In this document: piece by piece, positions 50,864-53,030 of the stretch
How the letters are laid out: each line of letters begins with the position of its first letter
Numbering within the stretch: the stretch's first letter is position 1
Source of the DNA: an uncultured Verrucomicrobia subdivision 3 bacterium
GTDB taxonomy: Bacteria > Verrucomicrobiota > Verrucomicrobiia > Limisphaerales > UBA11358
DNA length: 64,000 nucleotides
Assembly (NCBI GenBank): GCA_903827955.1
Contig: CAIKKJ010000075.1
Coordinates: forward strand, 32,332-96,331
Direction: 5' to 3'
Translations under genes and position numbers: made by a program
The notes under the pieces: generated by a model
Told to the model about the DNA's origin: nothing
Databases searched by the model: none
Seen by the model: the letters and a program-made list of their open reading frames with translations, nothing else

Positions 50864-51843
50864 TGATCATTGCGCGTTCACCACTTCGCATCAGCCTCGG
50901 CGGCGGCGGCACGGACTTGCCGTCGTATTACGAAAAATTCGGCGGCTTCCTCATCGCCGGCGCGATTGACCGCTACGTTTACATCACGCTGCACGAAACC
51001 TTCGTGCCGGATTTGATCGTGAAATATTCCGAGCTGGAACGCGTGCCAGCGGCGGCGCAACTCAAACACCCGATCATCCGCGAAGCCTTTGCCGCGCTGG
51101 GTATGGATGGTCATTCACTCGAACTGACTTCCATGGCGGACATACCGTCGGGAACTGGTCTCGGCTCGTCCGGCAGTTTCACCACCGCGCTGCTCAAAGC
51201 CTTGCACGCGCACAAAAAGAATCTCGTTCACCCCGCCGAACTCGCCGAACAGGCGTGCGACATCGAACTAAACCGCCTCAAAGAACCCATCGGCAAACAG
51301 GATCAATACATCGCGGCGTATGGTGGATTAACGTGCTTCAAGTTTTTGCCCGGCGGCAAAGTCGAAGCGTGGCCGTTGAAAATTTCGGACGAAACGCGCG
51401 ACAATCTCGAAGACAACCTCCTGCTCTTCTTCACCGGCTATTCCCGCAGTGCTTCGGCAATCTTGAAGGAGCAGGATGTGAAATCGAAGTCCGACGACAA
51501 GTCCATGATCGAGAATCTGCACTTCGTCAAAGACCTCGGCCTGCAAAGCCAGGCGGCGCTCGAAAGCGGCAACCTTGCCGAGTTCGCGCGGCTGATGGAC
51601 GTGCATTGGCAGCGCAAGAAACAGCGCAGCGGCGGCATGAGCAATCCCAAGATCAACGAATGGTATGACCTCGCGATGGTCAGCGGCGCACTCGGCGGCA
51701 AGCTCATCGGCGCGGGCGGCGGCGGCTTCCTGATGTTTTACGCGGAGGACAAGGCCAAGCTGCGCCACGCCATGCGCACGGCGGGCCTGAAGGAAGTGCG
51801 CTTCCGGTTTGATTTCGAAGGGACGAAACTCGTCATCTCGTGA
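50864..51843 (+). CDS. hddA: D-glycero-alpha-D-manno-heptose-7-phosphate kinase-like GHMP kinase
   Basis: MIIARSPLRISLGGGGTDLPSYYEKFGGFLIAGAIDRYVYI; IPSGTGLGSSGSFTTALLKAL; KLIGAGGGGFLMFY. Confidence 0.88.
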
Positions 51844-51943
51844 ACGCATTTGACTCGCGTTGAAATGGGAAAAATTCTTTCCGACCACGCGAAAAAGTCT
51901 GGTTCGACCGCGTCCGGCAATCCGTGAATAAGACTTGGCGCGT

Positions 51944-52279
51944 CTGCCACCGGCTGCGGCCACGCTGACAGTTGAATTGGACGCTCTGCAAGCAACATTT
52001 GCCAGTCGTGCTACGACTTTGTCGGCTCTGTCACCAGCTTTGGCGTATCTGTCAGTCAGATTGGCGATGCTGGCTGTCGGTTTGTAGCATCTGAAGATTA
52101 CTTTTGCCGTGCTGTCAGTCGCTTTATCCGCTCTGTCAGCCACATTTACCGTCCTGCCACCTGACTCCACCCGACTGTCTGCCGCCCTGACCAGACTGGC
52201 TTTTGCACCGGCCTATCTGCCTGTAGATTTTTTGCCACTGACCCCTTGATTTTCCGTTCTGTTGTGCAAAATTTCTCAC
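51944..52279. repeat. Degenerate 21-bp tandem array, 16 units
   Basis: CTG at 51944, 51965, 51986, 52028, 52049, 52070, 52091, 52112, 52133, 52154, 52175, 52196, 52217, 52238, 52259 (52007 is CGT); T-rich core at unit positions 12-15 in most units. Confidence 0.85.
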
Positions 52280-52282
52280 CGT

Positions 52283-52978
52283 ATGACTGCCAAACAAGAG
52301 AACAAGTTGTCAATGTTTCTTGCGGTCAAGGCTGTATGCGACCGCAACACAGCGACCATCCAGACGCTCCCCGCGTTTGCCGATGGCTATACGGAGTTCA
52401 CGACGCACGTCGCGAACATTCAAACCCTCGCGCAGAATCAATCCGTGGATGCCACGGGCCTTGCTGCCGACAAACAACAACTCCGCAAAAACATGGCCAC
52501 CGCTGCCGCGACCATCGCCGCTGCCGTCAACGCCTACGCCAAGAAGGTCAAAAACAACGACCTCGCCGCGCAGAGCAGCGTGACCGCCAGCGATATGACC
52601 AGCGGACGCGACACCGCTGCCGCCGACACCGCGCGCAACGTCCACGCCGCCGCGACGGCGAACCTGGCCAACCTTGCGCCCTACGGCGTGACCGCCGCCA
52701 AGCTCACCGACTTGAAGGCCAAGATAGACGCCTACGCCGCGAGCCTGTCCAAGCCGCGTGACGCCGTGGCCTCCGGTTCCACGGCCACCAAGCAATTGGC
52801 CGATGAGTTTGACGCCGCCGATGCCGCGTTGAACGACCAGATGGATGCACTCGTGCCGCAGTTCGCCGCTGCAAACGCGAAGTTTGTGGAGGACTACAAC
52901 AACGCCCGCATCATCGTGGATTCGGGCGGTGGCAAAGCGAAAGCCAAGACGCCCACGCCCAAACCCCCAAGTCCGTAA
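52283..52978 (+). CDS. Uncharacterised Ala-rich helical protein
   Basis: MTAKQENKLSMFLAVKAVCDRNTATIQTLPAFADGYTEF...; C-terminal KAKAKTPTPKPPSP tail; followed by intrinsic terminator. Confidence 0.75.
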   Translation: MTAKQENKLSMFLAVKAVCDRNTATIQTLPAFADGYTEFTTHVANIQTLAQNQSVDATGLAADKQQLRKNMATAAATIAAAVNAYAKKVKNNDLAAQSSVTASDMTSGRDTAAADTARNVHAAATANLANLAPYGVTAAKLTDLKAKIDAYAASLSKPRDAVASGSTATKQLADEFDAADAALNDQMDALVPQFAAANAKFVEDYNNARIIVDSGGGKAKAKTPTPKPPSP

Positions 52979-52998
52979 AATAAAATTCGGAAAACACG

Positions 52999-53030
52999 AC
53001 AGCCTCCAGAAATGGAGGCTGTTCTTTTTT
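52999..53030 (+). terminator. Intrinsic terminator
   Basis: acagcctcca gaaa tggaggctgt tctttttt: 10-bp perfect stem, GAAA tetraloop, T-run. Confidence 0.92.

Follow-up and report, generated by a model that had tools for sequence, protein, structure and literature searches.

Here we describe a non-coding array of sixteen 21-bp units that lies immediately upstream of an uncharacterised gene in the window, by which we mean the whole 64-kb stretch of DNA analysed here. Arrays that nearly always have this period, close to two turns of the double helix, precede uncharacterised genes from several unrelated families in two bacterial phyla. A search of the literature for 21-bp arrays found no description of such arrays, and these apparently form a class that is undescribed so far. 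The array, its gene and their surroundings in the window comprise the following features:

51877-51943, + strand: left flank shared with genomes G028 and G069, traceable to the 3'-terminal part of a truncated copy of thrS (blastn and alignment).
51944-52279, + strand: non-coding array of 16 x 21 bp, consensus tCTGtCAgc.GctTTggCc, strongest at 51975-52192.
52283-52978, + strand: family-A gene, 231 aa, predicted all-helical with a Pro-rich tail, under purifying selection.
52998-53023, + strand: Rho-independent terminator, GACAGCCTCCAGAAATGGAGGCTGTT plus a T run, closing the array-gene unit.

The period and phase of the array were observed directly. CTG opens 15 of the 16 units, the exception being CGT at 52007, and the exact 21-bp period claimed by an earlier, sequence-only reading is borne out both by the unit layout from 51944 and by autocorrelation. 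Within 51944-52279 the autocorrelation reaches 0.483 (lag 21) and 0.490 (lag 42), with approximately 0.26 at other lags, and this combined signal is the highest anywhere in the window. The comparison with randomised sequence that had been suggested as a check gave a 21-bp score of 0.503 for the intergenic region 51841-52282, against 0.269 ± 0.015 (maximum 0.333) for 2000 dinucleotide-preserving shuffles (z ~15); all other periods from 10 to 40 scored 0.35 or less. The 21-bp array is genuine. Tandem Repeats Finder did not detect it in the window because the units are too diverged. The T-rich core noted earlier is visible, but the final three units (52217-52279) are weak. As had been proposed, this is not a CRISPR, which would have near-identical repeats and unique spacers, since the units are contiguous and diverged and have no spacers between them.

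The array sits between hddA and the 231-aa gene, whose ATG at 52283 follows the final unit by 3 nt. Structure prediction gives the protein an all-helical bundle (pLDDT 85, pTM 0.52) followed by a proline-rich tail that is disordered. It has no convincing assignment in Pfam, NCBIfam, PHROGs or PADLOC, it lies outside Rfam as well as Pfam, and a fold search with the model returned no PDB or viral match at E<0.001 and no recognised DNA-binding fold. The N-terminal domain of the family, here called family A, likewise has no convincing counterpart in Pfam, NCBIfam or PHROGs. The gene is under purifying selection, with dN 0.15 and dS 0.53 between the window and locus L035 (dN/dS ~0.28) and dN 0.011 and dS 0.278 between L035 and L036 (dN/dS 0.04). 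A near-identical terminator (GACAGCCTCCAGAAATGGAGGCTGTTTTT) is found behind divergent family-A genes, namely in the window (52998-53023) and at L035, L039, L040, L043 and L053. An integron-like attC site 3' of the gene was considered and rejected, the conserved 40-bp element being a plain terminator.

The two nearest relatives, G028 and G069, carry a truncated thrS followed by the same array and gene. At both loci (L035 in G028, L036 in G069) thrS is split, its N-terminal half ending right before the array and gene and its C-terminal half lying kilobases away; the intervening genes differ between the two genomes. The window retains approximately 67 bp of this thrS flank behind hddA, and the array and gene were therefore relocated together from another context.

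Family-A homologues are sporadic across Verrucomicrobiota and Bacteroidota. They are present in 23 of 97 related genomes, in other verrucomicrobial groups, and in metagenome-assembled and other genomes titled Opitutaceae, Phragmitibacter, Carboxylicivirga, Chitinophaga and other Bacteroidota, with as many as 11 matches per genome. Searches of plasmids, phages and viruses gave no family-A matches, and an origin from any of these was rejected on that ground. The earlier reading was to stand or fall by comparable arrays at homologous loci, and most of these have a 21-bp array, upstream of the gene wherever its position was checked. We identified 42 such loci in the two phyla (approximately 40 of them independent, L074 and L090 being one locus), with a mean self-match of 0.62 at lags 21 and 42 and 0.24-0.28 elsewhere. 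Family-A loci without an array are L046, L047, L051, L073 and L076. The distance from array end to start codon is 73-210 bp at the 16 family-A loci measured and is larger at some Bacteroidota loci. A 7-bp sub-period, with three heptamers per unit, was seen in a few arrays (L037, L038, L048) and is not significant over the 42.

The unit sequence mostly differs from locus to locus, and unit similarity tracks the identity of the family-A proteins (Mantel r 0.63, p 0.0002). For example, the array unit is still recognisable across phyla between L038 (CTGCCGGTTGNAAAATGACNT) and L075 in Bacteroidota (the same locus as L086; CTGTCGGTTGAGAAATGACGT): protein identity is only 28%, yet unit similarity is 0.58, the 99th-percentile baseline being 0.41. 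The window and L035 arrays align over approximately 340 bp at 58% identity, the only indel being precisely one 21-bp unit long. Between L035 and L036 the arrays diverge by 9% and the synonymous sites of the gene by 23%. Array length is constrained, and sequence less so. The proteins themselves vary in predicted pI from 4.7 to 10.2 and are not uniformly basic. Those of Bacteroidota (L076, L078, L104, L111 and others) often have a C-terminal carboxypeptidase-regulatory-like domain and a further beta-like domain; those of Verrucomicrobiota mostly have a proline-rich tail at the C-terminal end instead.

Arrays of this type extend beyond family A. A scan of 800 kb of the Bacteroidota genome G485 found 22 intergenic 21-bp arrays (L112-L151). 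Many adjoin ordinary genes (guaA, dnaK, a helicase), several face small hypothetical genes other than family A, and one separates a Cas9-like gene from a gene of a second family, B. The window's own genome, scanned over 846 kb, yielded just two arrays above threshold, and the periods seen were 21 bp and its harmonic 42, save for one 30-bp case. The second strong array there (L188:3838-4068, contig C37) has GCGTCGAAA-type units and lies upstream of a rhodanese-like gene that belongs to none of families A, B and F. Arrays were called at a peak self-match of at least 0.5-0.55, and most of the genomes sampled are metagenome-assembled and incomplete.

Family B proteins are 228 aa long with a weak fibronectin-III match, and are found in 17 of 149 genomes of G485's class and in 30 of 94 genomes related to that of the window; the window's own genome has two copies. 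Plasmid and phage searches for family B gave no matches. Its loci include 29 clear arrays, 23 with a period of 21 bp, three of 20 and three of 22. Two alternating unit types are common among them (L267, L249, L261, L247), giving a 42- or 44-bp super-period. Family F, counted so as to take in distant members, was found in 24 of 94 and in 11 of 119 genomes, the window's own included, and all 37 of its arrays have a 21-bp period. Neither B nor F is recognisably related to family A; a profile comparison of B with A detected no homology between the two. Genomes with one of the three families have the others more often than expected (B-F p 1e-9, A-F 1e-4, A-B 0.003), also within the genus (B-F 3e-4, A-F 0.008, A-B 0.05). 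Since 20 and 22 bp are not multiples of three, the constraint on the period looks like one of two helical turns rather than of seven codons. That the period is nearly fixed over two phyla despite sequence change is strong evidence of selection on helical phase.

The units of families B and F, but not of A, are palindromic. Against column-shuffled controls, dyad symmetry at p<0.05 was found in 18 of 29 family-B arrays (Fisher 9e-18) and 25 of 37 family-F arrays (4e-23), compared with 3 of 42 in family A. Dyad mismatches comprise 66 GT and 57 AC, with no G-U excess, and the symmetry is therefore at the DNA level or strand-neutral. One unit common to several family-B loci, TTCCCAANNTTGGGAA, served as a test of privacy: 8 of its 8 sites in G048 and 4 of 6 in G014 are within the array. 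It is therefore unlike the operator of a dispersed regulon, and in this one case the array motif appears to be private to its locus.

Helical phase, DNA-level dyads, motif privacy and co-divergence with the gene together argue for an array that is bound by protein along one face of the DNA. We tentatively favour a helically phased, private array that would be bound by the product of the adjacent gene or by a shared partner. Together with one gene and a terminator, the phased, non-coding array would form a self-contained chromosomal unit, offering a row of protein sites every two helical turns, all on the same face of the DNA. Such a private array could nucleate a cooperative protein filament or cluster. 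The likeliest ligand would be the adjacent gene's product, or a partner common to families A, B and F, acting as an autoregulator or as a centromere-like anchor. The analysis shows the period and phase of the array, that it is non-coding, that it recurs throughout the family and diverges along with the gene, and in one test case that its motif is private; binding, ligand and outcome alike we infer. Our confidence is held at this tentative level because arrays also lie by ordinary genes, because units turn over in family B, and because no DNA-binding fold was recognised. A strict pairing of arrays with families A, B and F does not hold, since arrays adjoin ordinary genes both in G485 and in the window's own genome, and the co-divergence of unit and protein is also expected under simple co-inheritance. 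A broader version, possible but doubtful, is an unrecognised bacterial system with many private phased arrays per genome, each paired with a member of one of several unrelated protein families and sharing a common reading mechanism. Each array might then serve as a landing strip with its own address on the chromosome, its sequence diverging so that cross-talk is avoided, and the paired families would be helical, some with fibronectin-III-like or carboxypeptidase-regulatory domains. As the arrays precede widespread uncharacterised accessory proteins, binding to the array would be a concrete clue to the role of those proteins.

The main rival, which we consider unlikely, is a phased DNA element indifferent to sequence: a mechanical or topological spacer that governs how the DNA bends, is supercoiled or insulates a promoter, and that grows and shrinks by whole units so that only period and symmetry are retained. 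It would account for units that are almost wholly different among many loci while the period is unchanged, for a whole unit being the sole indel between the window and L035, and for arrays beside unrelated genes. Unit turnover between close orthologues also fits, as in family B, where L213, L214 and G485 have quite different units at 74-78% protein identity. However, part of family A keeps a recognisable unit sequence across phyla, and dyad symmetry is specific to particular families (B and F, not A). Nor do the units show a 10-bp recurrence of A-tracts or of A/T content. Phased A/T-tract curvature was rejected on the same lack of signal, several arrays being G+C-rich, and the intrinsic curvature suggested by the earlier reading is not a common feature of the arrays.

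It is improbable that the arrays are neutral or selfish minisatellites, in which slippage or another repeat-making process produces 21-bp units near dispensable accessory genes. The 22 arrays in 800 kb of G485 and the sporadic occurrence of family-A genes (23 of 97 genomes) are as such a process would have it, and clean, recently expanded arrays do exist (L099, L221, L321). Slippage, however, would not set a single unit length for unrelated sequences, and the window's own genome shows, over 846 kb, little besides 21 bp and the 42 harmonic (the 30-bp case aside). Nor would it lead one to expect upstream placement, family-specific symmetry, the absence of sub-unit indels at 42% divergence (window versus L035), or array divergence below synonymous divergence (9% and 23%, L035 and L036).

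There is a similarly small chance that the array is transcribed and acts as RNA, like the repeat antitoxin upstream of the toxin gene in type III toxin-antitoxin loci. A repeat array does precede a small single gene, as in toxI-toxN, and some arrays fold well (L099, L102, L061). However, the mean folding z-score is weak and about equal on the two strands (-0.9 sense, -1.1 antisense), the dyads lack a G-U bias, a terminator separates array and gene at 0 of 16 family-A loci, and the all-helical protein model has no significant fold match. Rfam gives no match to the array. Its DUF805 motif (L099:149-216, - strand, above the gathering score) and DUF805b motif (L102:1161-1195, - strand, below it), in the same genome, both lie 3' of genes, downstream of family-A paralogues.

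A coding origin, whether a decayed coiled-coil gene or an antisense heptad-repeat protein, has next to no probability: 21 bp does equal seven codons and the minus frame is open from 52170 leftwards in the window, as had been claimed, but in the two nearest relatives that share this unit type (L035, L036) each of the six frames of the array contains two to four stops, variation between units is unbiased by codon position (3 of 42 arrays at p<0.05, 0 of 42 at p<0.01), and family B has periods of 20 and 22 bp as well. Among the 42 arrays, just 8 have every one of the six frames closed, and open frames are weak evidence because a clean 21-bp unit may happen to have no stop. The coding model can be regarded as already refuted for practical purposes. 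Among the three candidates of the sequence-only reading, the phased regulatory or protein-binding array survives and both coding models fail.

Like bacterial intergenic VNTRs and minisatellites, the arrays are tandem, with locus-specific units and recent expansion at some loci; they differ in having a period that is almost constant in two phyla, a place upstream of the gene, palindromy confined to certain families, and indels of whole units only. With type III toxin-antitoxin loci of the ToxIN type they share short tandem repeats directly before a small single gene. Type III repeats are approximately 35-45 nt long, whereas those here are 20-22 bp, and the terminator between array and gene is absent. 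There is no RNA-structure or G-U signal, as folding is weak and strand-neutral without an Rfam match, and the protein lies outside known toxin families, its all-helical model having no PDB match at E<0.001 and thus no ToxN-fold endoribonuclease. The resemblance is one of layout only.

Iteron arrays and partition sites (RepA iterons, parC/ParR, R388 StbA) are phased direct repeats with a period of approximately two helical turns or half of that, and they adjoin one gene and are private to their element. The arrays described here are likewise phased at approximately two helical turns (21 bp, range 20-22, in three families), lie next to one gene and appear private to their locus. They differ in being chromosomal, with families A and B giving no plasmid or phage matches in the searches run, and in having no recognised Rep, ParA or HTH protein, whereas such sites on a replicon adjoin an initiator or partition gene. 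They also reach up to 31 units, with several unlike arrays per genome before unrelated gene families. By analogy, and with protein binding putative, the arrays would work most like iteron and partition-site arrays.
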